Shown one piece after another: positions 10,240 to 45,780 of a stretch of DNA of 64,000 bases. A program made the position numbers and the translations under genes. The number at the start of each line of letters is the position of its first letter. Within the stretch, counting starts at the first letter, position 1. The notes below the pieces were generated by a model. It searched no databases and was not told the DNA's origin. It was given only the letters and a program-made list of their open reading frames with translations. Origin of the DNA: Phycisphaerales bacterium (GTDB lineage Bacteria > Planctomycetota > Phycisphaerae > Phycisphaerales > UBA1924); contig JACVCL010000002.1 of NCBI GenBank assembly GCA_016742075.1, forward strand, positions 1 to 64,000, written 5' to 3'.

Positions 10240-10245
10240 TACACT
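10240..10245 (+). promoter_or_regulatory. -10-like TACACT, 9 nt before a kinase ATG
   Basis: TACACT ends 9 nt before the ATG at 10255. With normal -10 to +1 spacing, transcription would start within a few bases of the start codon. No Shine-Dalgarno or good -35 is visible. Confidence 0.5.
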
Positions 10246-10254
10246 GCGCGCCAG

Positions 10255-12846
10255 ATGGGCGATCGAGAAACCTCCCACCCCACCGCGGTCTCACCTTCGC
10301 AGATCATGCGGATGCCCGAGGTGCCGGGCGAGCACCCGCAGACCATCGGCCCCTACCGAGTAGTCCGGTGCCTCGGAGAAGGCGGCTTCGGGGTGGTCTA
10401 TCTGGCCGATCAATCCGAGCCCGTCAGGCGGCGGGTGGCGATCAAGCTGCTGAAGCTGGGCATGGACTCGCGCGAGATCCTTGCCCGCTTCCACGCCGAG
10501 CGGCAGGCCCTGGCCCTCATGGACCACCCGGGCCTCGCCCGCATCTACGACGCGGGGCTCACGGAGGCGGGGCGTTCGTACTTCGTGATGGAGTACGTCC
10601 CCGGCCTGCCGATCACCGACTACGCCGACCGATCGCGGCTGCCGATCGCGGATCGGATCCGCCTGTTCATCCAGGTCTGCCGGGCGGTGCAGCACGCCCA
10701 CCACAAGGGCATCATCCACCGGGATCTCAAGCCGTCGAACATCTTGATCCAGACGATCGACGACGCGCCGGTGCCGAAGGTCATCGACTTCGGCGTCGCC
10801 AAGGCCGTGACGGCCTCCGCTTCGCCGGCCGACCTCCGAACCGAAGCCGGCCAGCTCATCGGCACGCCCGAGTACATGCCGCCCGAGCAGGCCGACAACA
10901 ACTTCAGCGATCTCGACACGCGGGCCGACGTGTACGCGCTGGGCGTGGTGCTCTACGAACTGCTCACCGGCGCCCTGCCGTTCGACTCCGACACGCTCCG
11001 GCACGCGGGGGTGGCCGGCATGCAGCGCATCATCCGCGAGCAGGAGCCACCGCGCCCCTCGAACAAGGTCGCCTCGAACCCGCGCAAGGCCGCCGACGCG
11101 TCGACCGAGCGCCTCTCACCTTCCGAGACGGGACCGGTGGCGGCCTTCCCGATCTACTCGGCCGAGGAACTCGCCCGGTGCCGGTCGACGGACGTCAGAA
11201 CGCTGTTCCGAACGCTGCGCGGCGAGCTGGACTGGATCATCCTGAAGTGTCTCGAGAAGGACCGGGCCCGCCGCTACGACTCGCCCAATGAACTCGCGGC
11301 CGACCTCGAGCGCTTCCTGATCGACGAGCCCGTCGCGGCGGGGCCCCCCTCGACCGTGTACCGCCTCCGCAAGTTCGCGCGGCGGAACAAGGCGCCGCTC
11401 GCCGTCGCCGGCATTTTCTGCCTTGGTGTGGTGGCGGCGTTCGTCGTGATTTCGGCGTTGCTCGTGCAGACACGCGCCCAGCGAGACCGCGCCGACACCG
11501 AGGCCGCGCGGGCCAGCCAGGTGGCGTCGTTCCTCCGCACGACGCTCGCCGCCGTCGATCCGGAGGTGGCCCAGGGTCGGGATACGTCCATTCTGCGGCA
11601 GATGCTCGACACATCCTCGGCGAGGATCGACGCCGAGCTCGCCGGCCAGCCGGTGGTCGCCGGCACGCTCCGCGATACCATCGCCGGCGCCTACGCGGCG
11701 TTGGGCGAGTACCGCCTCGCGATCCCGCACGCCGAGGCGTCGGTGCGGCTTCTCGATGGGGCTCTGGGCCCGGAAGCACCGGAGACTCTCGCCGCCGTCA
11801 ACAACCTGGCGGTGATGTACCGAAACCTTGAGCGCAACGACGACGTCGAGCAGTTGTACCGCCGGGTCATCGACGCCCGGACCAAGGCTCTGGGTGTGGT
11901 GCATCCCGACACGGTGGCCGCCTGGTCGAACCTGGCGGTGTTCTTCGTGGCGGCGAACCAGCTCGACAAGGCCGAGGCGATCTACGCCGCCAATATTGTT
12001 CCGGTGCTCGGCCAGATCAGCCAGTCCGACCCGGCTCTTCCCCTGTACTACAACGATCTGGCCCGCCTGCGCTCGCGGCAGAACAAACCGGACGAAGCGC
12101 TGAGCCTGTACACCAAGGCCCACGACATCGCCCGCAAGCACCTGGGACCAACGCACCCGAACACGCTGACGATCCTCAACAACCTCGCGACGTTCTACGT
12201 CGAGATCCACCGGCCGGCCGACGCCGAGCCTCTTCTCAAAGAACTCGTCACGCTCATCAGACGCGTCTACGGACCTGAGCACGCCGAGAATTTCTTCGCG
12301 GCCAACAACCTCTCGGCGTTCTACCAGGATCAGGGCCGGCTCGACGAGGCCGAACCGCTGATGGTCGAGGCCGCCCGAATCGCCGAAAGGGCGTACGGCC
12401 CCGAGCACACCCGCACCTTGACGGCGTGCTCGAATCTCGCACTGCTCTACTCGAGCACCGACCGCTTCGACGCCGCCCAGCCGCTGTACCGGCGCGTCAT
12501 CGACGGTCGGATGCAGATCCTGGGGCAGGACCATGCCGACACCGTTATCGCCCAGCACAACTACGCTTCTTCGCTCGTCGAACGGGGCGAGTTCGCAGAC
12601 GCCGCGGCGATCTACGCCAAGGCCGTTCCCGCGGCCCGGCGGGTGTTTCCCGAGGGCCACATGCTGCTGGGCGCGGTGCTCACTTGGCAGGGCCGGGCGC
12701 TCACGGGCACAAGGGACTTTGCCGGCGCCGAGGCCGCCCTGAACGAGGCAAAGGGCCTGCTCACCCGCCTGCTGGGCCCCGATCACGCGCGAACCCGGCT
12801 GGCCGAGGAGGCGCTCAAGGCGCTGGAGGCGGCGTGGGCGAAGTGA
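10255..12846 (+). CDS. Membrane Ser/Thr protein kinase with C-terminal TPR repeats
   Basis: An 863-residue protein of a class very abundant in planctomycetes. The kinase domain (about residues 34-360) has the glycine loop LGEGGFGVVYLA, invariant Lys64 in VAIKLL, catalytic HRDLKPSN (Asp157), DFG (Asp178), the GTPEYMPPEQ activation segment and DVYALGVVLYELLTG. A transmembrane helix lies near residues 380-403, followed by a region of about seven TPR units of the tetratricopeptide-10/12 type (repeating NNLA..Y, DEAEPL, YGPEH). It therefore has a cytoplasmic kinase and a probably periplasmic or exposed protein-interaction array. The kinase domain carries a linker (about 275-300, after EQEPPRPSNK) before its C-terminal helices. 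Partners are unknown. A probable leaderless promoter lies 9 nt upstream. Confidence 0.93.
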   Translation: MGDRETSHPTAVSPSQIMRMPEVPGEHPQTIGPYRVVRCLGEGGFGVVYLADQSEPVRRRVAIKLLKLGMDSREILARFHAERQALALMDHPGLARIYDAGLTEAGRSYFVMEYVPGLPITDYADRSRLPIADRIRLFIQVCRAVQHAHHKGIIHRDLKPSNILIQTIDDAPVPKVIDFGVAKAVTASASPADLRTEAGQLIGTPEYMPPEQADNNFSDLDTRADVYALGVVLYELLTGALPFDSDTLRHAGVAGMQRIIREQEPPRPSNKVASNPRKAADASTERLSPSETGPVAAFPIYSAEELARCRSTDVRTLFRTLRGELDWIILKCLEKDRARRYDSPNELAADLERFLIDEPVAAGPPSTVYRLRKFARRNKAPLAVAGIFCLGVVAAFVVISALLVQTRAQRDRADTEAARASQVASFLRTTLAAVDPEVAQGRDTSILRQMLDTSSARIDAELAGQPVVAGTLRDTIAGAYAALGEYRLAIPHAEASVRLLDGALGPEAPETLAAVNNLAVMYRNLERNDDVEQLYRRVIDARTKALGVVHPDTVAAWSNLAVFFVAANQLDKAEAIYAANIVPVLGQISQSDPALPLYYNDLARLRSRQNKPDEALSLYTKAHDIARKHLGPTHPNTLTILNNLATFYVEIHRPADAEPLLKELVTLIRRVYGPEHAENFFAANNLSAFYQDQGRLDEAEPLMVEAARIAERAYGPEHTRTLTACSNLALLYSSTDRFDAAQPLYRRVIDGRMQILGQDHADTVIAQHNYASSLVERGEFADAAAIYAKAVPAARRVFPEGHMLLGAVLTWQGRALTGTRDFAGAEAALNEAKGLLTRLLGPDHARTRLAEEALKALEAAWAK

Positions 12847-13063
12847 CACCGCTCGCACGACGGTGGGCGGCCGCCCGGCAGATCGCGGCACCATGAACCC
12901 GGGTCGTCATCCGTGGTCTGGCGATCCGCACCGTCTCCGCCGGCGAATCGCGCTACCGCACCGTGGCGCCCCGCCCCGACCGCCGACGCACGCCGTGGGG
13001 CACCGATCTCGGGTACGCTCCTCCGCGCAAAGTGCTCTCTCACCCTGTTCAACCCCAGCGACC

Positions 13064-13939
13064 ATGACCCATCCCAGTTCCGTTCAGAGCGTGGCCCAGG
13101 CTGACTACGTCCTCGGCACGGACCCCGCTGAGGCGGCCCGGCTCGGCCTCCAGCACCGTCTCTGGTCCGACGCGGCGCACGCCGCATGGAAGCACGCCGC
13201 CATCACCCCGGGTCAGACCGTTCTGGACCTTGGCTCCGGCCCCGGGCACGCCTCGTTCGACCTGGCGCAGCTCGTCGGCCCAACGGGCGTGGTCCACGCG
13301 GTGGAAGAATCCGCGACGTACGTTCACGCCCTGACGGCGGCAGCCGCGGCCCGGCACCTCGGCAACATCCGGCCGCATCACGCCGATGTGCAGCGACTGG
13401 AGTCCACAGCCATACCCCCCGCTTCCGTGGACCTGGCGTGGGCCCGCTGGGTGCTCTGCTTTGTGCCCGATCCTGCCGCCGTGGTGCGGGGCGTCGCCCG
13501 CCTGCTGAAGCCCGGCGGCCGCTTCATCGTGTTCGACTACTTCGATTACGCCACGATGACCATCGCCCCGCGGTCTCGGGCGTACCAGAAGGTCATCGAC
13601 GCCACCGCCCAGTCCTGGCGTTCGCGCGGCGGCGACCCGGATGTCGTCGGCCGCCTGCCGGGGTTCTGCCGGGAAGCCGGTCTGGACGTGACCCGCCTGC
13701 ACCTGCACCACCGGTTGGCCCAGCCTCCGGCCGCGGCGGGGGCGAACTCCGACAATCTCTCGATGTGGGCCTGGCCCGATACCTGGTGGCGGACGTACGT
13801 CCCCAAGCTCATCGCGATGGGGGCGATCACGCAGGCCGACGCCGACGCGTTCTTCGCCCACTGGAATGCGGCCGCGGCCAACCCCAGCGCGTTCGCCGTC
13901 TGCCCCCCGGTCTACGAGCTCATCGCGACCAAGCGATGA
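13064..13939 (+). CDS. Class I SAM-dependent methyltransferase
   Basis: A 291-residue enzyme with the Rossmann methyltransferase core. Motif I is VLDLGSGPGHASF (from residue 53), the acidic end of strand 2 is VHAVEES, motif IV is VDLAWARWVLCFVPDP, and the post-motif helix and strand RLLKPGGRFIVFDYFDY follows. This arrangement resembles the UbiE/Methyltransf_11 group, acting on small molecules or lipids. The C-terminal 130 residues, with TWWRTYVPKLIAMG, probably form the substrate lid. The substrate cannot be assigned. The ATG at 13064 gives a complete N-terminus. A TACGCT box at 13014-13019 could drive it with a leader of about 40 nt. Confidence 0.85.
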   Translation: MTHPSSVQSVAQADYVLGTDPAEAARLGLQHRLWSDAAHAAWKHAAITPGQTVLDLGSGPGHASFDLAQLVGPTGVVHAVEESATYVHALTAAAAARHLGNIRPHHADVQRLESTAIPPASVDLAWARWVLCFVPDPAAVVRGVARLLKPGGRFIVFDYFDYATMTIAPRSRAYQKVIDATAQSWRSRGGDPDVVGRLPGFCREAGLDVTRLHLHHRLAQPPAAAGANSDNLSMWAWPDTWWRTYVPKLIAMGAITQADADAFFAHWNAAAANPSAFAVCPPVYELIATKR

Positions 13940-14144
13940 TGATCGCCGCGGCCCTTGGGGTTGAGGGCGGGGCGTCCACAAGTCGGCTCTGATCCGCGGG
14001 GCCGCGGCCGGGTTCCGCCTACAATGGCGAACGTATCCCTACCGTCCGTGATCCGCCTCATCCAACCGCTCCAGCGATCGAACTTTACCGAGACGCCTGA
14101 ACTCCACCCGCCGCCGGCCTGCCGCGGGCGGCCCCCTGTCCACC

Positions 14145-16058: not shown

Positions 16059-16093
16059 GCCCGCGGCCGCCTCGCTCGGCCCGGCGGCTGTGC

Positions 16094-16099
16094 TAGTCT
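16094..16099 (+). promoter_or_regulatory. -10-like TAGTCT before the GAF-PP2C gene
   Basis: TAGTCT lies 11 nt before a GTG at 16111. If used, it excludes the further-upstream in-frame GTG at 16090 and predicts a leader of only a few bases. Confidence 0.4.
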
Positions 16100-16110
16100 G
16101 CCCGAGTTTG

Positions 16111-17433
16111 GTGCGGGCATGGGCCGGCGGGGCCCGCCCGGGCGCGAAAGGCAGGCTGACCATCGATCGGCAGGTTTTCGAGCAGGTGCTCCGGGTGTCC
16201 CGGCGACTGGCCCAGTCCTCCGACCTATCGGAGACCCTGGGCCTCATCATCGACACCCTCCGCGACACGCTCGACGCCGAGCGTGCCAGCGTGTTCCAGT
16301 ACGACGCGGCCCGGAACCAGCTCTTTGCCACCAAGGCCCACGGGCTGCCGTCGGATCTCCGCCTGCCGGCCACCGCCGGGATCGTCGGGCAGGCGGCGAC
16401 CTCGCGGCAGATCATCAACATCCCCGATGCCTACGCCGACGCACGCTTCAACCCGGCGGTCGACCGGGCCACAGGGTTCCGGACACGCGGCCTGCTCACC
16501 ATCCCGCTCATCGACTTCGAGAACCATCTCGCGGGCGTGGCACAGGTGCTCAACAAGCGGCACGGCGCCGCCGGGGCATTCTCGAAAGACGACGAGGAAC
16601 TCGCGGAGTATCTCGCCGGTCAGGCCGCGGCCGTGCTCAAGCGCGCCGCTCTGCTCGAGGCCCGCCGCGAGAAGGAGCGGCTGCAGCTCGACATGCAGGC
16701 CGCCCGGGTGATCCAGCGCGCGTCTTGGCGGCAGTCGCTGCCCGAATTTCCCGGATTCGACATCGCGGGGGCGAGCACCCCGGCCGACGAGACCGGCGGC
16801 GACGCCTTCGACGTGATCGACCTCCGCCCCTTCGGCGGCGCGGCCGAGGGGTTCGTCCTGCTCGCCGACGCCACAGGCCACGGCGTTCAGGCGGCCCTGC
16901 CGGTGGCCCAGGTGCTGGCCATGTCCCGCATGGCGGCGAGGCTGGGCACGCCGCTCGAGGCGATCGGCCGGAACATGAACGCCCAGCTCTGCGGCGACCT
17001 GCCCACTGGCCGCTTCGTCACCGCGTTCCTCGGCGAACTTCTGGCGGCCGAGGGCACTCTTCGGTACATCTCGTTCGGGCAAGGGCCCATCCTGCACCTG
17101 ACGGCCTCTGGTCCCCGGCCTCCCGAGGCCGAGTGCCTCGGCGCCAACGCGATGCCTATGGGCATCGACGACGTGGTCGAAGGGCTGACGGTCGAGACCA
17201 TCCGCTTCGAGCCGGGCGACGTCGTCGCCCTGCTCTCCGACGGGTTCTTCGAGGCCAAGAGCCCGGCCGAGACGCAGATGGGGCACGAGCGGGTGATCGA
17301 GGCGGTCCGGAGCACGATGGACGCCTCGGCGGCCCAGATCATGGCCGCGGTCCGGGCGGCCACGGCGGTTCACGCCGCGGGCGTCGCGGCCGACGACGAC
17401 CAGACCGCCCTGATCATCAAGCGGGTGTCCTAG
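16111..17433 (+). CDS. GAF domain plus PP2C-type (SpoIIE/RsbU) phosphatase
   Basis: A 440-residue cytoplasmic signalling protein. A GAF sensor domain (about residues 20-170) has ERASVFQYDAA, TAGIVGQAATSRQIINIPDAY and RTRGLLTIPLID. It is joined by a short helical linker (EARREKERLQLDMQAARVIQ) to a SpoIIE/PPM phosphatase domain (about 200-440). Metal-binding positions appear as ETGGDAFDVI and LLADATGHGVQAAL, with VVALLSDGFFEA and the terminal ADDDQTALIIKR. The last resembles the usual DDxTLVVI(R) ending. Such proteins dephosphorylate anti-anti-sigma (STAS) proteins. A STAS protein is encoded at 35250, but any link is inference. The GTG at 16111 is chosen from the -10 position. 16090 is an alternative start. 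Confidence 0.85.
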   Translation: MRAWAGGARPGAKGRLTIDRQVFEQVLRVSRRLAQSSDLSETLGLIIDTLRDTLDAERASVFQYDAARNQLFATKAHGLPSDLRLPATAGIVGQAATSRQIINIPDAYADARFNPAVDRATGFRTRGLLTIPLIDFENHLAGVAQVLNKRHGAAGAFSKDDEELAEYLAGQAAAVLKRAALLEARREKERLQLDMQAARVIQRASWRQSLPEFPGFDIAGASTPADETGGDAFDVIDLRPFGGAAEGFVLLADATGHGVQAALPVAQVLAMSRMAARLGTPLEAIGRNMNAQLCGDLPTGRFVTAFLGELLAAEGTLRYISFGQGPILHLTASGPRPPEAECLGANAMPMGIDDVVEGLTVETIRFEPGDVVALLSDGFFEAKSPAETQMGHERVIEAVRSTMDASAAQIMAAVRAATAVHAAGVAADDDQTALIIKRVS

Positions 17434-17461
17434 GGTGCAGCCGGGGGGCGGGTGGGCCCGA

Positions 17462-17467
17462 TAGAGT
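17462..17467 (+). promoter_or_regulatory. -10-like TAGAGT, 7 nt before a start codon
   Basis: TAGAGT followed by 7 nt and the ATG at 17475. There is no Shine-Dalgarno. Predicted leaderless promoter. Confidence 0.45.
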
Positions 17468-17474
17468 GATCCGT

Positions 17475-17768: not shown

Positions 17769-17810
17769 CCACGCCCTCGGGACGGCACAGCGCCGTGGGA
17801 GACCTTCGGA

Positions 17811-20020: not shown

Positions 20021-20038
20021 CGGGCGCAGGTCGGGGCC

Positions 20039-20044
20039 TACACT
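20039..20044 (+). promoter_or_regulatory. -10-like TACACT, 9 nt before the methionine aminopeptidase ATG
   Basis: TACACT is followed by 9 nt and the ATG at 20054, the same hexamer and spacing as before the kinase at 10255. A weak GTGACG (20017-20022) sits 16 bp upstream as a possible -35. Confidence 0.5.
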
Positions 20045-20053
20045 GGCGGCCCC

Positions 20054-23194: not shown

Positions 23195-23265
23195 GCGCGG
23201 CTCCCGGCCGAATCGAAAGGAGGGTAGCACGCCGGCGCCGCCCGGCGGCCGCGTCCGGGCGGGCC

Positions 23266-28028: not shown

Positions 28029-28034
28029 AGATTA
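28029..28034 (-). promoter_or_regulatory. -10-like TAATCT, 7 nt before a start codon
   Basis: On the minus strand TAATCT (28034-28029) then 7 nt then the ATG at 28021. Predicted leaderless promoter of the isomerase-like gene. Confidence 0.4.
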
Positions 28035-30440: not shown

Positions 30441-30446
30441 TAGATT
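30441..30446 (+). promoter_or_regulatory. -10-like TAGATT, 6 nt before a start codon
   Basis: TAGATT, 6 nt, then the ATG at 30453. There is no Shine-Dalgarno. Predicted leaderless promoter (read-through from tRNA-Leu is also possible). Confidence 0.4.
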
Positions 30447-30452: not shown

Positions 30453-31829
30453 ATGCCGCTGCTGATCAAGAACGGCCGGGTCGTCACCGCGACCGACGAT
30501 TACCGCGCCGACGTGCTCGCCGAGGGGGAGGTGATCTCGCGGATCGGGAGGTCAATCGGGCCTGCCGAGTGCCCGCCGGGCACGGAGGTCATTGATGCGA
30601 CGGGGAAGCTGGTGTTCCCGGGGTTCATCGACCCGCACGTCCACGTGCACCTGCCCTTCATGGGCACGCACGCCAAGGACACCTGGGAGACGGCCGGGCG
30701 GGCGGCGCTGGTCGGCGGCACAACCACGCTTATCGAGATGATCTGCCCGGGGAAGACCGACGAGCCGATCGCGGCGCTGGAGACCTGGCTCGGCAAAGCC
30801 CGCGGCGCCGCGGCGTGCGACTTTTCGTTCCACATGGGCGTGACGCGTTTCGATGATCTGGCCGAGCGTCAGCTGCGACAGATCGTCGAGCGTGGCATCC
30901 GGTCGTTCAAGGTGTTCCTGGCGTACAAGGGGGCGCTGGGCGTCGACGATCGTGAGCTGTACCACGCTCTTCGGCTGGGGGCCGAGCTAGGCGTCGTGGT
31001 GACCGCGCACTGCGAGAACGAGACGCTGGTCGACGAGCGCCAGCGCGAGCTGCTGGCGTCGGGCAAGACCGGTCCGGAGTTCCACGGCCCGAGCCGGCCC
31101 GTTCAGGTGGAGGCCGAGGGGGTCCGCCACCTGATGACCTTCGCCGAGCTGACCGGGGCGGAGGTGTACGTGGTGCACACCTCCTGCGACGAGGCGGTCG
31201 TGGAGGCCGTCCGGGGCATCGAGCGCGGTGTGCGGGCGCACGTCGAGGTGGTGCTCCCCCACCTGCTGCTCGATCACTCGTTCACCCAACGGCCGGGGTT
31301 CGAGGGGGCCAAGTACGTGATGAGCCCGCCGCTCCGCGACCGCTCGCAGCTGCGTCGGATGTGGTCGCACCTCCGTTCCGGGACGGTGTCGACCGTGGCC
31401 ACCGACCACGCGCCGTTCGACTTCCAGACGCAGAAGACCCTTGGCCGCGAGGCGTTCACCAAGATTCCCAACGGCATCCCCAGCGTCCAGCACCGCGTCG
31501 AGCTGCTGTACACGCACGGTGTGTGCGAGGGCCGGATCGACCTGCGGACGTTCGTCGCCGCCGCGAGCACCAACGCCGCGAGGATCTTCGGGCTGCGCGG
31601 CAAGGGCGGGATCGCGGTGGGCGGCGACGCTGACCTCGTGGTCTTTGACCCCGATTTCCGGGGCACGATCTCCGCGGCCACGCACCAGATGGCGACCGAC
31701 TACTCGGCGTTCGAGGGGTGGCCCGTCAGGGGGCGGGCCGAGGTGGTGGCGGTCCGCGGGGCGGTGATGGTTCGGGACGGACGGTTCATCGGCCGTCCGG
31801 GGCACGGCCGGCTGGTGCCGCGCGGGTAG
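30453..31829 (+). CDS. Dihydropyrimidinase / hydantoinase family amidohydrolase
   Basis: A 458-residue binuclear zinc hydrolase opening cyclic amide rings (dihydropyrimidines or hydantoins). HxH ligands are in FIDPHVHVHLPFMGT, and the carboxylated lysine is Lys159 in FKVFLAYKG. Further metal and substrate positions are VVTAHCENE, VYVVHTSC and TVATDHAPFD. Length and pattern match dihydropyrimidinase better than allantoinase or dihydroorotase. No other pyrimidine catabolic gene is adjacent, so the in vivo substrate is open. Convergent with ptsH, whose stop is only 8 bp away. Confidence 0.88.
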   Translation: MPLLIKNGRVVTATDDYRADVLAEGEVISRIGRSIGPAECPPGTEVIDATGKLVFPGFIDPHVHVHLPFMGTHAKDTWETAGRAALVGGTTTLIEMICPGKTDEPIAALETWLGKARGAAACDFSFHMGVTRFDDLAERQLRQIVERGIRSFKVFLAYKGALGVDDRELYHALRLGAELGVVVTAHCENETLVDERQRELLASGKTGPEFHGPSRPVQVEAEGVRHLMTFAELTGAEVYVVHTSCDEAVVEAVRGIERGVRAHVEVVLPHLLLDHSFTQRPGFEGAKYVMSPPLRDRSQLRRMWSHLRSGTVSTVATDHAPFDFQTQKTLGREAFTKIPNGIPSVQHRVELLYTHGVCEGRIDLRTFVAAASTNAARIFGLRGKGGIAVGGDADLVVFDPDFRGTISAATHQMATDYSAFEGWPVRGRAEVVAVRGAVMVRDGRFIGRPGHGRLVPRG

Positions 31830-34623: not shown

Positions 34624-34626
34624 CGC

Positions 34627-35606: not shown

Positions 35607-35642
35607 ACCTTACCCGTGCCACGGGTGCCGCGGCAAACGCGG

Positions 35643-35648
35643 TACGCT
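35643..35648 (+). promoter_or_regulatory. -10-like TACGCT, 7 nt before a start codon
   Basis: TACGCT then 7 nt then the ATG at 35656. No Shine-Dalgarno. Predicted leaderless promoter of the DinB-family gene. Confidence 0.45.
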
Positions 35649-35655
35649 CTCGGTC

Positions 35656-36225
35656 ATGACCGCCCCGACCGATCACCCCGCTCCCCCCCAGCCGGCCGCG
35701 TACCGGGCGATGGGCGAGGCCGAACTCGTCAGCCGCTACCGGCAGGGCTCGGCCATGATCGAGCGCCGGCTGCTGGATTGCACCGACGAGCAGCTCGACA
35801 CGTTTTTCCGCCCCGAGGCCCGGGTGGGCCAGTGGTCGTGCCGCGTGCTCGTGGGGCACCTTGCCGATGCCGAGCTTGTGCAGGCCCACCGGATGCGCCG
35901 GGCCGTGGCCGAAGACCACCCGGTTTTCGCCCTGTGGGACGAGAACGCGTTCATTGACGCCGGCCTGTACGGCGCGGCATCGGTGAAGGTGGTGCCGGCG
36001 GCGGCCCACGTGGCGTTCATCCACACGCTGCGGCTGTGGAACGGCGACTGGCTGGCCACGCTCTCCGGCGAGCAGTGGGTCCGCCGCGGCCTTCACCCCG
36101 AGGCCGGCGAGCAGACGGTCCGAGATCTGCTCGTGAAGACGGTCTGGCACTTCGATCACCACGTGTGGTTCCTGTCCCGAAAGCTCGAGCGCCTGCTCGG
36201 GCCGGCCGCCGAGCGTGCGAGCTAG
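35656..36225 (+). CDS. DinB-family four-helix protein
   Basis: A 189-residue DinB/YfiT-like protein. Helices RYRQGSAMIERRLLD, CRVLVGHLADAELVQAHR and VRDLLVKTVWHFDHHVWFL carry the His positions (GHLAD, HFDHH) that bind a divalent metal in this family. Members include thiol-dependent detoxification transferases and DNA-damage-inducible proteins. The exact activity cannot be told. It lies 9 bp ahead of the GspE/PilB ATPase, whose own -10-like box overlaps the stop codon here. A functional link is unlikely. Confidence 0.82.
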   Translation: MTAPTDHPAPPQPAAYRAMGEAELVSRYRQGSAMIERRLLDCTDEQLDTFFRPEARVGQWSCRVLVGHLADAELVQAHRMRRAVAEDHPVFALWDENAFIDAGLYGAASVKVVPAAAHVAFIHTLRLWNGDWLATLSGEQWVRRGLHPEAGEQTVRDLLVKTVWHFDHHVWFLSRKLERLLGPAAERAS

Positions 36226-36228
36226 AGT
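36223..36228 (+). promoter_or_regulatory. -10-like TAGAGT, 6 nt before a start codon
   Basis: TAGAGT begins with the TAG stop of the DinB gene and ends 6 nt before the ATG at 36235. Predicted leaderless promoter. Confidence 0.35.
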
Positions 36229-36234
36229 CTGCGC

Positions 36235-37914
36235 ATGGCTATCGGCACGATCCTGCTGGACCGCGGCCTGATCGACCGAGCGCAGCTGGAGGCGGCCCTC
36301 GCTGAGCAGAAGGTCAGCGGGGAACGCGTCGACCAGGTGCTGCTGCGGATGGGGCTGATCCGCGCCGGGGACGCGCTGCGCGCGGTAGGCGAGCAGTTCG
36401 ACATGCCGATCGTCGATCTGGCCACGATCGACGTCGATCCCGGCGTGCTTTCGGCGATCCCGCCGCAGGTGGTCTTCCGTCAGCAGTGCGTGCCGATCGA
36501 GCGTCGCGGCAGCGGGCCGGCATCGGTGCTGCGCGTGGCCACGAGCAACCCGTTCGAGCTCACGGTGTTCGACGAGCTGCGCCTGCTCACGGGGTGCGCC
36601 GTCGAGCTGGCCCTCGCCGACGACGACGACCTGCGGGCGTTCATCCGCAAGCACTACGGCGTCGGCGGCGACACGCTCGACACCCTCAGCCGCGGCCTGC
36701 CGGGGACCGCCGAGCCCGCCGCCGATGACGCCGACGACGAGCAGAAGGCCAGCGAGGCCTCGGTGATCCGGCTGGTCAACGAGCTGCTCTACGAGGCCGT
36801 CGCCGCCCGGGCCACCGACGTCCACATCGAACCCTACGAGAACCGGCTGATCGTCCGGTACCGCATCGACGGCGTGCTGCAGAAGGCGAGTCTCCCCCCC
36901 ACCATCCACCAGTTCGCCGCGGCCATCATCAGCCGAATCAAGATCATGGCCAACCTCAACATCGCCGAAAAGCGCAAGCCGCAGGACGGCCGCATCACCC
37001 TGCGTCACAAGGGAGACGTGTTCGACCTCCGCGTCTCGGTGATCCCGATGCTCTTCGGCGAGGGTGTCGTGCTACGGATTCTGAACAAGACCGCGGTGCT
37101 CATGGGCCTCGACCAGCTCGGCATGCCGCCGGGCGTGCTGCGGATCTGGGACGGGCTGATCTCCAAGCCCCACGGCATCCTGCTCGTCACCGGGCCCACG
37201 GGGTCGGGCAAGTCCACGACGCTGTACGCCTCCCTGAACCGGATCGTCTCCGAGGAGGTCAAGGCCATCACCGTGGAGGACCCGGTCGAGTACCACGTGG
37301 CCGGTGTGAACCAGATCCAGGTGAACCACAAGGTCGGCCTCGATTTCGCGGCGGGCCTGCGGGCGATCCTCAGGCACGACCCCGATGTGATCATGATCGG
37401 AGAGATCCGCGACCGCGAGACGGCCGAGGCGGCGGTCCAGGCCTCGCTCACCGGCCACCTGGTCTTCAGCACGCTCCATACCAACGACGCCTGCGGGGCG
37501 ATGCCGCGCCTCCTCGACATGGGGGTCGAGCCGTACCTGGTCGCCTCGTCGATCGAGGGTGTGATGGCCCAGCGGCTGGTGCGGCGGATCTGCCCCGACT
37601 GCCGACAGCCGCACACGCCCGAGCCACGGGAGATCCCCGACGACTTCCCCGTCGGCCCCGATGCGACGTTTCTCAAGGGCGCCGGCTGCAAGACGTGTTC
37701 CGGCACCGGCTACCGGGGCCGGATCGGCATTTACGAGCTTCTGGCCGTTTCCGACCACACCCGGGATCTCGTGATGAAACGGGCCAACGCGGGCCAGATG
37801 GCCTCCCAGGGCCTGGCCCGCGGCGAGCTCACCCTGCTCAAGCACGACGGGTACGCCAAGGCGGCCGCCGGGCAGACCACGATCGCCGAGGTGCTCCGCG
37901 TCGCCAAGACTTGA
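36235..37914 (+). CDS. GspE/PilB-family type II secretion or type IV pilus assembly ATPase
   Basis: A 559-residue hexameric motor. The N-terminal MshEN/GspE_N domain (about 1-150) starts IGTILLDRGLIDRAQLEAAL. Then comes the ATPase domain with GPTGSGKSTT (Walker A, about residue 320), the Asp box HIEPYENRLIVRYRIDGVL, Walker B GEIRDRETAEAA and the His box FSTLHTNDA. A zinc knuckle (RRICPDC, then CKTCSGTGYRGR) is characteristic of PilB/GspE and absent from PilT. It therefore drives polymerisation of a pseudopilus or pilus. No other secretion gene is adjacent, apart from an exported protein of unknown function 61 bp downstream. Confidence 0.93.
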   Translation: MAIGTILLDRGLIDRAQLEAALAEQKVSGERVDQVLLRMGLIRAGDALRAVGEQFDMPIVDLATIDVDPGVLSAIPPQVVFRQQCVPIERRGSGPASVLRVATSNPFELTVFDELRLLTGCAVELALADDDDLRAFIRKHYGVGGDTLDTLSRGLPGTAEPAADDADDEQKASEASVIRLVNELLYEAVAARATDVHIEPYENRLIVRYRIDGVLQKASLPPTIHQFAAAIISRIKIMANLNIAEKRKPQDGRITLRHKGDVFDLRVSVIPMLFGEGVVLRILNKTAVLMGLDQLGMPPGVLRIWDGLISKPHGILLVTGPTGSGKSTTLYASLNRIVSEEVKAITVEDPVEYHVAGVNQIQVNHKVGLDFAAGLRAILRHDPDVIMIGEIRDRETAEAAVQASLTGHLVFSTLHTNDACGAMPRLLDMGVEPYLVASSIEGVMAQRLVRRICPDCRQPHTPEPREIPDDFPVGPDATFLKGAGCKTCSGTGYRGRIGIYELLAVSDHTRDLVMKRANAGQMASQGLARGELTLLKHDGYAKAAAGQTTIAEVLRVAKT

Positions 37915-37975
37915 CCCCGCCGCCGCTACCCTTCCGGAATTCCCGCATCCCAGCCGACCCCCGAGGAGACCCACC

Positions 37976-40039: not shown

Positions 40040-40065
40040 TCGAGGGCCGCCGGCCGTCGGGCCGG

Positions 40066-40071
40066 TACAGT
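40066..40071 (+). promoter_or_regulatory. -10-like TACAGT, 6 nt before a GTG start
   Basis: TACAGT, GGCCCC, then the GTG at 40078. Predicted leaderless promoter for the GT9-maf-lpxK genes. Confidence 0.45.
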
Positions 40072-40077
40072 GGCCCC

Positions 40078-41187
40078 GTGCTTCACGCCGATCGCATCCT
40101 CATCATCCGCCCGAGCGCGCTGGGAGATGTCTGCCGGACGGTGCCTGTGCTGGTGAGCCTCCGCCGCGCCTGGCCGGCGGCGCGGATCGACTGGCTGGTG
40201 AACGACTCGTTCGCCCCCGCCGTGGCGGCCCACCCCGACCTGCTGGCCCATGGCGGCCGCGCTCTGCCCTTCCCTCGGACCGGCGTGGCCGTGGGAAAGC
40301 TGCTCCGCGCCACCCGCGAGGGCACCGAAGCCCGCCGCAGGCTCCGCGCCTTTCGCCAAGAGCTTCGGGACGGACGCTACGACCTCGTCGTCGACTGCCA
40401 GGGCCTCGCCCGCTCCGGGGTCTTCGCGTGGTGGACGGGCGCACCGATGCGCGTGGGCTACTCGGCGCGGGGCGGCGCCCGCGAACTGGCGTGGCTCGGC
40501 GTGAACCGGCGGGTCGACGTTCCCGCCGAGATGCACACGGTGGACCGCATGCTGGCGCTGGTCGAAGGTCTGGGGATCAACCCCGTTCGCCCGCCGGATC
40601 TGCGCCTGCACACCGCCCCGGCCGACCGCGAGGCGGTCCAGGCCGGACGGCTCGATCCACGCCTGGCCGGCGGCGCCCGGTTCGCGGTGATCGCGCCGGG
40701 GGCCAAGTGGGCGGGCAAGCGTTGGCCCGCCGACCGTTTCGCCGCGCTCATCCGGGCAATGCTCGCCGAGAGTGGCACGCTCGACGCCGTCGCGGTGGTC
40801 GGGACCAAGGACGAGCGAGGGCAGTGCCAGCCGGTTCTCGACCTGGCCCGGCGCGACCGCCGCGTCGTCGATCTGATGGGCCGCACCTCGGTCGGCGTGC
40901 TTATGGCAGCCATCGAGCGTGCCCGGCTGGTCGTCGCCAACGACTCGGCGGCGGTGCACATGGCCGTCGGCTTCGGCCGTCCGCTGGTGGCGCTCTACGG
41001 CCCCACGAGGATCGACCTCGTCGGACCGTACGGGCGGTCGGCGGATGTGCTGCAGCCCCGCGGCGTCGCCACCGGCCGTGCCCTCCACAAGGACCAGCAG
41101 GCCGGCGCCGCCGCCATGCTCCGCATCGAAGTCGCGACGGTGATCGAGGCGGCGGCGGCTCGCCTATCTTCGGAACGCTCGCCGTGA
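40078..41187 (+). CDS. Glycosyltransferase family 9 (heptosyltransferase-like)
   Basis: A 369-residue GT-B enzyme. The N-terminus RILIIRPSALGDVCRTVPVL and ARIDWLVND are typical of ADP-heptose:LPS heptosyltransferases (WaaC/WaaF/WaaQ). The second half has FAVIAPGAKWAGKRWPADRF, VVDLMGRTSVGVLMAAIERA, ANDSAAVHMAVGFGRPLVALYGPT, the nucleotide-sugar binding core. It is followed by coupled maf and lpxK and then hldE, which makes ADP-heptose, so a role in the LPS inner core is well supported by context. The GTG start lies 6 nt after a -10-like box. Confidence 0.9.
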   Translation: MLHADRILIIRPSALGDVCRTVPVLVSLRRAWPAARIDWLVNDSFAPAVAAHPDLLAHGGRALPFPRTGVAVGKLLRATREGTEARRRLRAFRQELRDGRYDLVVDCQGLARSGVFAWWTGAPMRVGYSARGGARELAWLGVNRRVDVPAEMHTVDRMLALVEGLGINPVRPPDLRLHTAPADREAVQAGRLDPRLAGGARFAVIAPGAKWAGKRWPADRFAALIRAMLAESGTLDAVAVVGTKDERGQCQPVLDLARRDRRVVDLMGRTSVGVLMAAIERARLVVANDSAAVHMAVGFGRPLVALYGPTRIDLVGPYGRSADVLQPRGVATGRALHKDQQAGAAAMLRIEVATVIEAAAARLSSERSP

Positions 41188-41771
41188 CCCGGCCGCGGCT
41201 GATCCTGGCCAGCACTTCGCCCCGTCGCCGGCAACTCCTCGACGAGCACGGCGTGCCCCACTCGGCCGTACCACCGGGGATCGACGACGCCGACCTCGCC
41301 CGGCCGCAGGCCGCGCCCCCGCACCAGTGGGTGGCGGGGCTGGCGTACCTCAAGGCGCGGGCCGTCCTCGACCGGACCGGCCGGGACGACCGGGGCGTGG
41401 TCCTGGCCGCCGACACCACGATCGTCAAGCACGGCCAGACGCTCGGGACACCGCGCGACCGCGAAGAAGCCCGGCGCATCCTGTCGTCGCTCGAAGAGGG
41501 CGAGCACGAGGTCGTCACCGGCGTGGCGCTCCTGGCCCACGGGCAGCGGACGCTGCTCGTCGATCGCGCGCAGGTCCGCGTCGGCGCCGTCGGCCCATCG
41601 GGGCTCGCCGCGTACCTTGACTCGGGCGACTGGCGGGGCAAGGCCGGCGGCTACAACCTGAGGGAGCGCCTCGCCGCGGGCTGGCCGATCTCGTTCGAAG
41701 GTGATCCCACGTCGATCATGGGCCTGCCGATGCGGCTGCTCCTGCCGTGGCTCCGGAGGCTGGGTCTATGA
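41184..41771 (+). CDS. maf: Maf-family nucleotide pyrophosphatase
   Basis: A 195-residue enzyme hydrolysing non-canonical or modified nucleoside triphosphates. LILASTSPRRRQLLDEHG is the family N-terminus, VVLAADTTIVKHG carries the catalytic Asp, and RGKAGGYNLRERLAAGW corresponds to the GKAGAYxIQ motif (here GGYNL). It overlaps both neighbours by 4 bp (GTGA with the glycosyltransferase, ATGA with lpxK), so it is translated as part of the envelope operon. In E. coli, Maf proteins act on dTTP/UTP/m7GTP. Preference here is unknown. Confidence 0.9.
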   Translation: MTRPRLILASTSPRRRQLLDEHGVPHSAVPPGIDDADLARPQAAPPHQWVAGLAYLKARAVLDRTGRDDRGVVLAADTTIVKHGQTLGTPRDREEARRILSSLEEGEHEVVTGVALLAHGQRTLLVDRAQVRVGAVGPSGLAAYLDSGDWRGKAGGYNLRERLAAGWPISFEGDPTSIMGLPMRLLLPWLRRLGL

Positions 41772-42784
41772 GCGGCCCGCTCCCGACGTGGCTAGCGCCG
41801 ATCGCACGGCTGGGCGAGTGTGTGTACCGTGCGGAGGTCGCCCGTCGGAACGCCCGGTACGACCGTGGGATAGGCGTCACGCATCTGCCTGTCCCCGTGA
41901 TCTCGGTCGGCAACCTCAGCGTCGGCGGAACCGGCAAGACCCCGATGGCGCTCCGCCTGCTCGGGGCGCTGACCGATGCCGGTCGGCGACCCGCGCTGGC
42001 CATGCGGGGGTACGCCAAGCCCCGGGGCGTGCAGCACTCCGACGAAGAATTGCAGTACCGGAACGCTTTCCCGCGGCTAACGATCGTCGCCCAGCCCGAC
42101 CGCCTGGCCGGTCTCAGGCCGCTGCTCGCCAAGCCCCCTGCCGATGGCGGACCCGACGTCGTCGTGCTCGACGACGGCTTCCAGCACAGGAGTATTGCCC
42201 GTGGTCTCGACATCGTGATGATCGATGCCGAACGCAGCCCGTTCACCGACCGCTGCCTGCCGGCCGGGTGGCTGCGCGAGCCGGTGTCGTCGCTGCGTCG
42301 GGCGCATGCGGTGGTCATCAACGGCCTCGAAACAACCGCCGTCGGCTCCATCGCCGAGGCGTGCCAGAAAGCAAACCCTTCGTTGCTCGTGGCACGTGCG
42401 ACGCGGCGCTGGACCAGCCTGATCGACGAAGATGACGCCCGGCGGGCCCCTCATACGCTGCGCGGCGCTCGGGTGCTGGCCATGCTCGCTATCGGCCACC
42501 CCGGCCAGGTGGTCGCCCAGCTTCGCGCCCTCGGCGCGTCGCACGTGCAACTGGTCGCCGAGCGCGACCACCACCCCTGGACCGAGACGGATCTCGCCCG
42601 CGCCTCGCGCACCGCGCTGACCGAACGGTGCGACGCCATCCTGACAACCGAGAAGGACTGGACGAAGCTGGCCGCCCTTGCGCCCCCCACCATCGGCCGG
42701 CGGCCGCCGATCCTGCGGCCGGTGCTCGCACTCGAAGGCGACGGAGCGTTCGAGCGCCTGCTGGCCCGGGCGAAGTCGGTCTGA
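41768..42784 (+). CDS. lpxK: Tetraacyldisaccharide 4'-kinase
   Basis: A 338-residue inner-membrane-associated kinase phosphorylating the lipid A disaccharide precursor. The P-loop VGNLSVGGTGKTP (about 47-59), VVVLDDGFQHRSIARGLDIV (catalytic Asp region), LPAGWLREP and FPDHHPWTE-like VAERDHHPWTE are LpxK signatures, followed by the ILTTEKDWTKL stretch. It overlaps maf by 4 bp. Its presence shows that this organism makes a phosphorylated lipid A, as expected for a bacterium with a true outer membrane. Confidence 0.95.
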   Translation: MSGPLPTWLAPIARLGECVYRAEVARRNARYDRGIGVTHLPVPVISVGNLSVGGTGKTPMALRLLGALTDAGRRPALAMRGYAKPRGVQHSDEELQYRNAFPRLTIVAQPDRLAGLRPLLAKPPADGGPDVVVLDDGFQHRSIARGLDIVMIDAERSPFTDRCLPAGWLREPVSSLRRAHAVVINGLETTAVGSIAEACQKANPSLLVARATRRWTSLIDEDDARRAPHTLRGARVLAMLAIGHPGQVVAQLRALGASHVQLVAERDHHPWTETDLARASRTALTERCDAILTTEKDWTKLAALAPPTIGRRPPILRPVLALEGDGAFERLLARAKSV

Positions 42785-42810
42785 CCCCAGCCTCCGCACG
42801 ACCGGCGCGC

Positions 42811-42816
42811 TACGCT
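42811..42816 (+). promoter_or_regulatory. -10-like TACGCT, 6 nt before a GTG start
   Basis: TACGCT, TCCGGG, then the GTG at 42823. Predicted leaderless promoter for hldE-nadC. Confidence 0.45.
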
Positions 42817-42822
42817 TCCGGG

Positions 42823-44304
42823 GTGAACGCCGCGCTGCTGAAAAAGCTTGCCGACTGGAAGCCGTTTGTTGCGCTGGTGGTGGGCGACTTCATGCTCGAC
42901 CAGCGCATCTACGGCGATGCCGAACGTCTGACCAACGATGCGCCCGTCCCCGTGCTGCACGTCCGCCGGACCGAGCACAACCCCGGCGGGGCCGCCAACG
43001 TCTGCATGGACTTGGCGGCGATGCACGCGCGGGTCCGCGCTTTCGGCGTGCTGGGCGCCGACGACGAAGGACGCCTGTTGCGGGAAGATTTGGATCGGGC
43101 GGGCATCGATACCGCCGGGCTGGTCAACGACCCCGCCCGGCCGACCACGGTCAAGAAGAATCTTGTCGGTCTGGCGCAGCACAGGCACCCGCAGAAGATG
43201 TTCCGGCTCGACTACGAGAGCCGCGAGCCGATCTCCGACGCCGTGCTCGCCGATCTGCTCGCCCGCTTCGACGCCGCGCTCAAGACCGCCGACGTCGTGG
43301 CGATCGAGGACTACAACAAGGGTGTCTGCTCCGAGCGCCTGTGCACGGCGATCATCGAACGCTGCCGGGCCGCCGGCAAGCCCGTGATGGTCGACCCGGC
43401 ACCGATCGCCGATTACGGCAAGTACCACGGCTGCACCGCGATCACGCCCAACAGAACCGAGGCCGAGCGGGCGACGGGAATGTCCGGGCACCAGGCCCCG
43501 GCCCAGGGCTACGGGTGGCTCGCCCACGCGCTCCGCGCCGACCTCGACGCCGACGCGGTCGTCCTCACCCTCGACAAGCAGGGCGCCCTGCTGCTCGAGC
43601 GCCAGGGCAATCCGCTGCACATCCCCACCGTCGCCCGCGAGGTGTACGACGTCACCGGCGCCGGCGACATGGTCCTGGCCGCGCTGTGCGCCGCCCGCGC
43701 CAACGGCATCGACTGGCCCGACTCCGTCCGCTTCGCCAACGCCGCCGCCGGGCTGGAGGTCGAGATCTTCGGCGTGCAGCCCATCCCCTTCGAGCGCATC
43801 CACCAGAGCATCATCACGCTCGAGCGCCACCGCCACGACAAGCAGCGTTCGCTGGAAGAGGCCGTGGTCGAGGCCGCGGCGGCCCGGCGCGAGGGCAAGT
43901 CGATCGTCTTCACCAACGGCTGCTTCGACATCCTGCACGCCGGCCACCTCTCGCTCGTCCGCCGCGCCCGGGCCATGGGTGATTTCCTGATCCTCGGCGT
44001 CAACAGCGACGACTCGATACGCCGCCTCAAGGGCTCCGACCGCCCAGTGCACCGCCAGGCCGACCGCGTCGCGCTGCTCTCGGAACTCTCCAGCGTCGAT
44101 CTGGTGGTCGTCTTCGACGAAGACACGCCGATGCGCCTTCTCGAAGAACTCCGCCCCGACGTGCTGGTGAAAGGCGCCGACTACACCAAGGACCGCGTCG
44201 TCGGGGCCGATCTCGTCGAGTCGTACGGCGGACGGGTCGAGCTCGTCGAACTCGTCGAGGGACGCAGCACCACCGCCGCCATCGAACGGCTCCGCAAGCC
44301 GTGA
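42823..44304 (+). CDS. hldE: Bifunctional heptose 7-phosphate kinase / heptose 1-phosphate adenylyltransferase
   Basis: A 493-residue fusion making ADP-heptose for LPS. The N-terminal PfkB-type kinase (about 1-330) has NPGGAANVCMDLAAM, VMVDPAP and VYDVTGAGDMVLAA with the catalytic Asp. The C-terminal nucleotidyltransferase (about 345-493) has FTNGCFDILHAGHL (HxGH), LILGVNSDDSIRRLKG and EGRSTTAAIERL. Domain order and length are as in E. coli HldE. It supplies the donor for the GT9 enzyme upstream. A longer upstream frame overlapping lpxK was rejected in favour of the GTG following a -10-like box. Confidence 0.95.
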   Translation: MNAALLKKLADWKPFVALVVGDFMLDQRIYGDAERLTNDAPVPVLHVRRTEHNPGGAANVCMDLAAMHARVRAFGVLGADDEGRLLREDLDRAGIDTAGLVNDPARPTTVKKNLVGLAQHRHPQKMFRLDYESREPISDAVLADLLARFDAALKTADVVAIEDYNKGVCSERLCTAIIERCRAAGKPVMVDPAPIADYGKYHGCTAITPNRTEAERATGMSGHQAPAQGYGWLAHALRADLDADAVVLTLDKQGALLLERQGNPLHIPTVAREVYDVTGAGDMVLAALCAARANGIDWPDSVRFANAAAGLEVEIFGVQPIPFERIHQSIITLERHRHDKQRSLEEAVVEAAAARREGKSIVFTNGCFDILHAGHLSLVRRARAMGDFLILGVNSDDSIRRLKGSDRPVHRQADRVALLSELSSVDLVVVFDEDTPMRLLEELRPDVLVKGADYTKDRVVGADLVESYGGRVELVELVEGRSTTAAIERLRKP

Positions 44305-45233
44305 TGCCCGTGGCCCCTCCGGTCAACCTCAACAGCCTGTCTCTGCCGGCGCTCTTCGCTGAGCTCTCGGCGTCAGGCCACATCCGCCGGCTCTTCGAGC
44401 TCGCCCGCGATGAGGATGTCGGCGCGGGTGACGCCACCTCGAAGGTCTGCATTGAAGCGTCAGCATCCACGACCGCCCTCATCCGGGCTCGGGCGCCCGG
44501 AGTCCTCGCCGGCCTGGCGACGCTGCCGCTCCTGCTCGATGTCTTCGACCCGGGCGTCTCGTTCCGGCCGATGGCGGCCGATGGCGAGCACGTCCGAGCC
44601 GGCGCCGTCCTGGGCACCCTCGCCGGTCCCACGCGCGGCGTACTCACGGTCGAACGCACCGTGCTCAACACCCTGTCGAGACTTTCGGGGGTGGCCACGC
44701 TCACCGCCCGCTACGTCGGGGCTGCCGGCACGGGCCGGGCCCGGGTCTTCGACACCCGAAAGACCACCCCGGGCCTCCGGGCGCTGGAAAAGTACGCGGT
44801 GAGGTGCGGCGGGGGGTTCAACCACCGCATCGGCCTGTTCGACGCGGTGCTCATCAAAGACAACCATCTGGCACGTGTCGCGATCGACGCCCTCGCCTCC
44901 CGGGTCACGAAGGCGGCGCGGGCCGCACGGGCGGCCGCGCGAGCCCTTCGGTTCATTGAGGTCGAGGTCGACTCACTCGACCAGCTCCGGGCCGTTCTCA
45001 CGGTCGAGCCTGGGCTCGTCGACATCGTGCTGCTCGACAACATGGCGCCGGCGGCGCTCGCCGAGGCGGTCATGCTCCGAGATCGCCTCGCCCCTGGCAT
45101 CGAGCTCGAAGCCTCCGGCGGCGTGACGCTCGAGACCATCTCGGCCATCGCCGCCACGGGCGTCGACCGCATCAGCGTGGGAGCGATCACCCACTCGGCG
45201 GCCGCGCTCGACATCGCCCTCGACATCGAATGA
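44304..45233 (+). CDS. nadC: Nicotinate-nucleotide pyrophosphorylase (carboxylating)
   Basis: A 309-residue enzyme converting quinolinate and PRPP to nicotinate mononucleotide in NAD biosynthesis. DVGAGDATS and RTVLNTLSRLSGVATLT are conserved, FDTRKTTPGLRALEKYAVRCGG binds phosphate, and HRIGLFDAVLIKDNH and EVEVDSLDQL follow. The C-terminal LEASGGVTLETI and GVDRISVGAITHSA complete the family. The ATG overlaps the hldE stop (TGATG). A GTG one codon earlier is an alternative. Its 3' end is 12 bp from convergent hscB. Confidence 0.95.
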   Translation: MPVAPPVNLNSLSLPALFAELSASGHIRRLFELARDEDVGAGDATSKVCIEASASTTALIRARAPGVLAGLATLPLLLDVFDPGVSFRPMAADGEHVRAGAVLGTLAGPTRGVLTVERTVLNTLSRLSGVATLTARYVGAAGTGRARVFDTRKTTPGLRALEKYAVRCGGGFNHRIGLFDAVLIKDNHLARVAIDALASRVTKAARAARAAARALRFIEVEVDSLDQLRAVLTVEPGLVDIVLLDNMAPAALAEAVMLRDRLAPGIELEASGGVTLETISAIAATGVDRISVGAITHSAAALDIALDIE

Positions 45234-45245
45234 TCACCCGGCCGG

Positions 45246-45764
45246 TCAGAGGCCGGCCGAGCCGCCTCCGGACCGCAGTTGCTCGATCATCCGCTCGGCG
45301 TAGCGCCACGCGTTGAGCTCGACCCGGATGGCTTGTAGCGCTTCAGCGGAGGGAGCCGCCCCCAGCCGCTCGAACATCTGCCCGACCGCGGCGATGTGCC
45401 CCTCCCGGCGTTCGCAGGCCATCGCCTCGGCCGCGGCGGACCGCCCCGGGTCCCCGGATGCCAGCGCCTCCTCCATCTCCTCCCGCACCGAGAGGATGTC
45501 CGCCAGAAACCCCGGGGGCAGAGTCTTGTCCTGCTCGCGTGCCGGCCCGCCGAGACGGACCAGCAGGGCGTCTGCGCGGCGCTCCGGATCCTCCACGACC
45601 GCCTTGGCCGCGTTGAGAGCGGCGATCGCCGACGCGGCCTCCTGATCCTCGGCCCCGGCCCGATCCGGGTGCAGGCGTGCCGCCGCCGCGAGCCAAGCCC
45701 TTCGGATCTGATCCGGGCTGAGATCGAACCTCGCCGGCACTCCGAGCCGATCGAACGCATCCAT
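45246..45764 (-). CDS. hscB: Fe-S cluster assembly co-chaperone HscB (J-domain protein)
   Basis: A 172-residue co-chaperone for HscA/DnaK in Fe-S cluster transfer. The N-terminal J domain has LHPDRA (His32-Pro33-Asp34), the Hsp70-stimulating motif, within DQIRRAWLAAAARLHPDR. The C-terminal helical bundle has DPERRADALLVRLGG, LPPGFLADILSVREEMEEAL and LNAWRYAERMIEQL, matching the scaffold-binding HscB_C domain. IscU or HscA are not adjacent. The ATG is 6 nt after a TAGCAT -10-like box, with no Shine-Dalgarno. Confidence 0.9.
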   Translation of the reverse strand: MDAFDRLGVPARFDLSPDQIRRAWLAAAARLHPDRAGAEDQEAASAIAALNAAKAVVEDPERRADALLVRLGGPAREQDKTLPPGFLADILSVREEMEEALASGDPGRSAAAEAMACERREGHIAAVGQMFERLGAAPSAEALQAIRVELNAWRYAERMIEQLRSGGGSAGL

Positions 45765-45770
45765 CGCCCC

Positions 45771-45780
45771 ATGCTACGAT
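45771..45780. promoter_or_regulatory. Overlapping divergent -10-like boxes for hscB and the racemase-like gene
   Basis: On the minus strand TAGCAT (45776-45771) precedes the hscB ATG by 6 nt (predicted leaderless). On the plus strand TACGAT (45775-45780) overlaps it and would start a leader of about 50 nt for the gene at 45839. Confidence 0.4.

Follow-up and report, generated by a model that had tools for sequence, protein, structure and literature searches.

Background

Leaderless genes preceded by a TANNNT hexamer about 12 nucleotides (nt) upstream of the start codon have been described for the Actinobacteria and Deinococcus-Thermus (Zheng 2011, PMC3160421), and leaderless genes were also reported for Mycobacterium tuberculosis (Cortes 2013, PMC3898074). 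For Deinococcus radiodurans and its relatives a '-10-motif' TANNNT was found some 6-7 bp before the open reading frame (ORF), and the abstract of that study (PMC12340547, 2025) mentions experimental validation of the motif as initiating the transcription of leaderless genes. According to a figure cited in PMC9581028 for the GeneMarkS-2 leaderless class, predictions attribute leaderless transcription to 21.6% of bacterial species. With respect to the Planctomycetota, the Planctomycetes are not named in the table of Zheng 2011 and a search of its main text for the word stem gave no match, nor is the phylum named for the leaderless class in passages of PMC9581028. Nakagawa 2017 (PMC5397173) points ambiguously to leaderless mRNA and/or S1 for one Planctomycetes genome, a 2024 survey of Shine-Dalgarno (SD) types (PMC10783764) lists the Phycisphaerae with the number 46 in a table, and the domain-wide scan of 2025 (PMC12340547), which gives its phyla in supplementary figures, may include the Planctomycetota. 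In the open-licence literature, searched by titles, starts of abstracts and passages, no paper other than Nakagawa 2017 was found to describe leaderless genes in the Planctomycetota.

The window analysed here spans positions 1 to 64,000 of contig JACVCL010000002.1 (155 kb) in the draft genome (3.07 Mb, 250 contigs, 88% complete) of a Phycisphaerales bacterium, and has a GC content of 69%. The original prediction, made from this window, was that a TANNNT box located 6-9 nt before ten of its start codons, and 11-12 nt before two others, marks leaderless genes. The lineages named with it as examples of such genes, Deinococcus-Thermus and actinobacteria, do not include this organism: among the best 80 relatives of the RpoD protein that were kept from species genomes, 79 are named Phycisphaer- or Planctomycet- and one is an 'uncultured bacterium', which identifies the host as a planctomycete of the order Phycisphaerales.

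Our analysis indicates that the boxes very probably function as -10 elements in sigma-70/RpoD (housekeeping) promoters devoid of a -35 element, from which leaderless mRNA is produced. RNA polymerase would melt the box and initiate some 7 bases further on, and the first adenine available there would usually be the A of the start codon; the 5' end of the mRNA would then lie at, or a few bases from, the AUG or GUG, and ribosomes carrying initiator tRNA would presumably bind directly to this 5' start codon to translate the leaderless message. Roughly one tenth of the genes in this genome appear to use such promoters. The genes resemble those of Zheng 2011 in the hexamer itself, in the position of its first T at -12 (equivalent to a gap of 6 nt between box and start codon), in the uninformative middle bases against a high GC background and in the presence of SD-led genes alongside. 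They differ in the phylum and in their share, about 10% as compared to the averages of 19.2% and 39.4% given there (PMC3160421). Likewise, the '-10-motif' of D. radiodurans shares the hexamer and the spacing of about 6-7 bp with the element described here, but it precedes around 30% of the ORFs on phylum average (PMC12340547) as compared to about 10% here. It concerns a known mechanism, in a lineage for which the searched literature contained no description.

A TANNNT box at fixed distance from the start codon

We collected a genome sample consisting of the window and 80 further stretches (873,528 bases; 28% of the genome), and called genes from codon statistics and the type of start codon, leaving upstream motifs out of account. 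This yielded 691 genes, fewer than expected for 873 kb, so that some genes were missed by the caller; the 648 genes with at least 110 nt of upstream sequence were used to derive gap profiles, in which the gap is the number of nucleotides between the end of the box and the start codon. As a control, each upstream region was shuffled with preservation of its dinucleotides (300 times for the genome sample, 1000 times for the window).

The presence of TANNNT before starts was confirmed and extends over the genome. A box at gap 6-9 was found for 68 of the 648 starts, compared to 3.5 ± 1.8 in the shuffles (maximum 9), and the signal was not limited to the window, as 61 of the 593 genes outside it, and 58 of the 535 genes on other contigs, had such a box. 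The counts for gaps 0 to 12 were 1, 0, 1, 1, 0, 4, 33, 14, 6, 15, 4, 1 and 3, on a background of 1.78 per gap. That background amounts to about 1.1% over four gaps, in line with the hand estimate of roughly 1% in the original prediction, and the distance count that it proposed as a check gave a sharp peak at gap 6, followed by gaps 9 and 7, far above the shuffles. When all 64 motifs of the form XYnnnZ were ranked over 21 gaps, TAnnnT at gap 6 came out on top (33 against 1.78; z 20.7), TAnnnT at gap 9 was second and at gap 7 fifth, the third and fourth places being taken by the SD-like AGnnnC. The mirror image A...TA and the letter swap AT...T gave no peak before the 648 starts.

The same picture was obtained independently of gene calls, by counting TANNNT-gap-ATG over the whole genome, with TANNNT at gap 12 (same codon phase) and the reversed pattern as controls. 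The counts (reversed control in brackets) were 160 (56) at gap 6, 77 (64) at gap 8, 87 (50) at gap 9 and 43 (44) at gap 12. Moreover, when the called start had no box, the alternative starts within 90 nt showed peaks at gaps 6, 7 and 9 (13, 9 and 6 cases), and some box genes have therefore been missed. One intergenic region of 86 bp in the sample (L011 9585-9670) lies between the divergent starts 9584 (-) and 9671 (+), each with a box at gap 6 (TACCGT and TACCAT), and we predict that it holds back-to-back leaderless promoters.

The box genes (76 when gaps 5-10 are included) hardly carry an SD motif: an SD four-mer was found before 2 of the 76, as compared to 245 of the 572 others, or about 40% of the genes without a box. 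The SD route is available in this genome, since the 16S rRNA ends in CACCTCCTT, and the two kinds of gene coexist, as had been proposed. The start codons of the box genes were ATG (63), GTG (13) and TTG (0), with TTG accounting for 19 of the 572 other starts (p 0.15). A same-strand upstream gene within 15 nt was found for 5 of the 76 box genes versus 101 of the 572 others, which is a tendency only, and an upstream neighbour on the opposite strand for 32 of 76 versus 144 of 572.

Promoter characteristics of the box

Alignment of the 76 sites showed that TACACT is the most frequent hexamer (12 sites). At spacers of 16-18 nt none of the positions of a -35 hexamer exceeded 0.10 bit and the best matches to TTGACA were similar to the control, and an extended -10 (TGn) was not seen either, T occupying position -3 in 8 of the 76 sites; both elements were thus rejected as part of the signal. 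The first four bases 3' of the box contained an A in 0, 5, 1 and 2 of the 76 sites, where about 11 were expected each. If transcripts preferentially start with an A, then, given the scarcity of A directly after the box, the first available adenine is mostly that of the start codon.

The box is not restricted to protein-coding genes. It occurred within 60 nt upstream of 25 out of 36 tRNA genes (8 of 13 in the own genome, 8 of 9 in a sample of the family and 9 of 14 in named relatives), as compared to 4 out of 36 on the opposite strand. In the window itself, all three tRNA genes lacked a TAnnnT over this distance. As tRNAs remain untranslated, the box can be considered a transcription signal. 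Together with the peak at gap 6, the tRNA boxes support the proposed promoter interpretation, from which leaderless transcripts would follow. The additional claim that TTGACA-type promoters precede the tRNA genes found limited backing, the best -35 match being 4 of 6 among the five tRNA boxes of the genome that could be scored, but near-complete combinations of TTGACA (5 or 6 of 6) and TAnnnT do occur before four of the 648 genes, with none in the reverse control.

The RpoD protein retains the stretch YATWWIRQAITR, with which sigma-70 of Escherichia coli reads the -10. In mycobacteria and Thermus, promoters with a weak -35 are assisted by CarD. No free-standing CarD was seen in 41 genomes of the order, in all of which the PF02559 domain was matched in Mfd-sized frames (at least 1092 amino acids) and in one additional frame of 893 amino acids (G015), never in a small frame; a CarD helper was therefore rejected. 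In these sequence features the box behaves as a -10 element of sigma-70 would, with no -35 partner.

Conservation in orthologs and in other Planctomycetota

The box gene at 36235 encodes a PilB/GspE ATPase, for which best-matching loci were recovered from 30 of the 41 genomes. Within the set of 24 loci with at least 55% identity (counting the own genome, and drawn from this and further families of the order), 18 had the box at gap 5-10, where shuffles gave a mean of 0.72 and a maximum of 3. The bases around the box differ among these orthologs while the box persists. The six omitted loci (G032, G033, G036, G009, G028 and G019; 44-50% identity) had no box within 60 nt of the start of the match; they are probably paralogs, or their starts are uncertain.

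In a sample of the family (40 stretches from 24 other genera; 531 genes) the box was enriched as well, with 9, 6, 5, 14 and 5 cases at gaps 5 to 9 on a background of 1.58, and an SD motif was found for 1 of the 40 box genes versus 197 of the 491 others. Within 80 named Phycisphaerae loci, each of the two main bins of GC content contained ten genes with a box at gap 6, out of 334 (background 1.62) and 333 (background 1.28). The 57-62% GC bin gave 2 of 145 (background 0.69) and the remaining three bins (11, 22 and 27 genes) gave 0 of 60, both with low power.

For the phylum, only counts were compared. With Bonferroni correction, TANNNT-6-ATG was in excess of the gap-12 control for 63 out of the 149 genomes, representing 27 of the 76 families; the ratio of gap 6 to gap 12 was at least 2 in 39 genomes and below 1.1 in 54, with a maximum of 8.6. 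The reversed control was often higher than the gap-12 control, and 28 of the 39 genomes with a ratio of at least 2 also exceeded the reversed control by 1.3. Three other members of the family reached 2.6-2.8 over gap 12 and 1.2-1.4 over the reversed control, and for three more families in the class (f7, f8 and f9; one genome each) the ratio was 1.0-1.15. In the AT-rich genomes (at least 600 control matches) none of 35 reached a ratio of 1.2, with a background that hides moderate numbers. The strongest ratios of the phylum sample came from two genomes of one family (f26; G171 and G155), with 103 versus 12 and 268 versus 54 matches at gap 6 and gap 12, respectively. High ratios were also obtained for f64, f35 and f66. 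These counts suggest that leaderless use of TANNNT is patchily widespread in the Planctomycetota.

Alternative explanations

The promoter reading draws on what can be seen directly, namely the position and spacing of the box, the lack of a -35, the depletion of A, the use at tRNA genes, the conservation before PilB/GspE and the rarity of SD motifs, and from these we infer where the transcripts begin and how ribosomes engage them. That step counts against the reading, and so do five observations. First, there is a second peak at gap 9 (15 of 648, versus 6 at gap 8), which is in frame with gap 6 and would give some of the box genes leaders of as much as 3 nt. The codons located 3 bases upstream of the 15 gap-9 starts are not start-like, except for one CTG and one ACG, and the excess of gap 9 over gap 8 is absent from the family sample (5 versus 14). 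Second, the gaps in the relatives are scattered over 5-9, and gap 8 is the commonest (14 of 531). Third, a 5-of-6 match to TTGACA was found at 2 of the 8 scored tRNA boxes of the named relatives, so that -35 elements do occur in the class. Fourth, the contrast in SD motifs is partly steric. When seven further hexamer patterns containing A/T were pooled at these gaps (out of ten, three being left out; counts rebuilt from rounded fractions), 25 of 134 cases had an SD motif, with 0 of 18 for one of the seven and about 1 of 22 for another; with 2 of 76 the box genes are still below this pool (p 0.0005). Fifth, the box of the dihydropyrimidinase gene (30453) was found at gap 5-10 in 0 of 13 relatives, 8 of which have an SD four-mer (matches were obtained in 14 of the 41 genomes, and 4 of the 13 relatives, at no more than 34-43% identity, are doubtful orthologs). 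Judged from such cases, genes seem to move between the leaderless and SD-led modes among relatives.

The alternative that survives best is that the boxes are real -10 elements, with leaders of 1-5 nt or slippage among start sites, so that the genes would be near-leaderless instead of strictly leaderless. It is favoured by the use of gaps 8-10 (6, 15 and 4 of 648) and by the preference for gap 8 in the family, and it conflicts with the main peak at gap 6 (33) and with the scarcity of A between box and start codon; we consider it possible but clearly the less probable description.

A second possibility is that TANNNT represents a translation signal (an A/U-rich contact for the ribosome or S1, or a lack of structure) and no promoter at all. 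The box indeed occupies the SD window and excludes the SD motif, and the ambiguous outcome for the one genome of Nakagawa 2017 (PMC5397173) would fit as well. The occurrence of the same box at untranslated tRNA genes (25/36 versus 4/36) largely refutes a signal of translation only, and the enrichment at fixed spacing applies to TA...T and not to the AT...T and A...TA swaps, which makes this explanation quite improbable. Still less probable is an artefact of gene calling, in which in-frame TAG or TAA stops just upstream of the starts create the pattern. In its favour, boxes at gaps 6 and 9 keep the reading frame of the start, and the one at 36223 opens with a TAG that is a stop codon, but the subset TA[CT]..T alone still peaks at gap 6 (21 versus 1.18), the in-frame gaps 0, 3 and 12 hold only 1, 1 and 3 boxes and the call-free counts over the whole genome agree, and the artefact is hereby refuted. 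In addition, stop-codon overlap does not explain the PilB/GspE box, because relatives often have TACACT or TACAAT at this position. Chance, finally, could be thought to produce a handful of short matches in one window of 69% GC, but the window has a box for 7 of its 55 genes, where shuffling yields 0.45 on average (maximum 4), and 61 of the 593 genes outside it have one too; this explanation has a negligible probability and is refuted by the shuffles.

The boxes of the window

The original twelve hexamers and gaps were all recovered exactly as listed when the 60 nt upstream of each start were inspected (Table 1). The accompanying statement that an SD motif is missing was correct in general, the exception being the dihydropyrimidinase gene.

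Table 1. TANNNT boxes and associated genes in the window
Box	Position	Strand	Gap (nt)	Start	Gene product	Remarks
TACACT	10240..10245	+	9	ATG 10255	Ser/Thr kinase with TPR repeats (Pfam)	start picked by caller
TAGTCT	16094..16099	+	11	GTG 16111	SpoIIE-like C-terminus	beyond main peak, uncertain
TAGAGT	17462..17467	+	7	ATG 17475	zinc ribbon protein	Zn_ribbon_8 match
TACACT	20039..20044	+	9	ATG 20054	type I methionyl aminopeptidase	start picked by caller
TAATCT	28029..28034	-	7	ATG 28021	xylose isomerase-like TIM barrel	start picked by caller
TAGATT	30441..30446	+	6	ATG 30453	dihydropyrimidinase	GAGG directly 5' of box; start picked by caller
TACGCT	35643..35648	+	7	ATG 35656	DinB/YfiT-like	weakly supported start
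TAGAGT	36223..36228	+	6	ATG 36235	PilB/GspE ATPase	start picked by caller
TACAGT	40066..40071	+	6	GTG 40078	heptosyltransferase family 9	start picked by caller
TACGCT	42811..42816	+	6	GTG 42823	HldE-like heptose kinase/adenylyltransferase	start picked by caller
TAGCAT	45771..45776	-	6	ATG 45764	HscB-like DnaJ co-chaperone	start picked by caller
TAGATT	60786..60791	-	12	ATG 60773	FHA + SpoIIE-like protein	beyond main peak, uncertain

Eight of the ten main starts were chosen independently by the motif-free caller, which preferred GTG 17466 over 17475, ATG 35578 over 35656 and, on the minus strand, ATG 60749 over 60773. A second, retrained run, from which the window count of 7 out of 55 genes derives, dropped 40078 from the set of the first run. 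Domain models fit the starts of 17475, 30453, 36235, 40078 and 45764. For 17475, presumably an FmdB-type zinc ribbon protein, positions 1-40 of the Zn_ribbon_8 model align with residues 1-42 (30.2 bits, below the cut-off of 34.4). The support for 35656 is weaker, with position 23 of the YfiT model on residue 25 and 61.6 bits versus a cut-off of 160. The caller probably misplaced the starts of these two genes.

Some further characteristics of the region were recorded. The TAG of the PilB/GspE box at 36223 also terminates the gene that lies before PilB/GspE. The heptosyltransferase and HldE-like heptose genes, both box genes, lie close together (40078-44304), pointing to a putative outer membrane of the lipopolysaccharide (LPS) type. 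The proteins encoded at 16111-17433 and 59052-60773 (-) both have weak SpoIIE-like C-terminal matches, and one of them has a match to an FHA-like domain. The Ser/Thr kinase with TPR repeats is large (10255-12846).

Implications

Taken broadly, leaderless, -35-free expression may be patchy but widespread across the Planctomycetota, without a free-standing CarD in the examined Phycisphaerales relatives, and with some genes switching to SD-led starts and others, like PilB/GspE, remaining leaderless across families; our confidence in this complete picture is evenly divided. Callers that have no model of the signal can misplace starts, and both start-codon annotation and promoter models would be corrected for a large and mostly uncultured phylum. 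The finding would add a lineage that joins the promoter to the start codon within about 15 bp, with a dispensable -35 and apparently without CarD. The genes at 30453 (putatively leaderless here, with SD-led relatives) and 36235 (apparently leaderless across families) provide pairs for testing selection on leaderless messages. If this patchy distribution holds, the Planctomycetota would constitute a further large clade with leaderless genes, besides the Actinobacteria and Deinococcus-Thermus.

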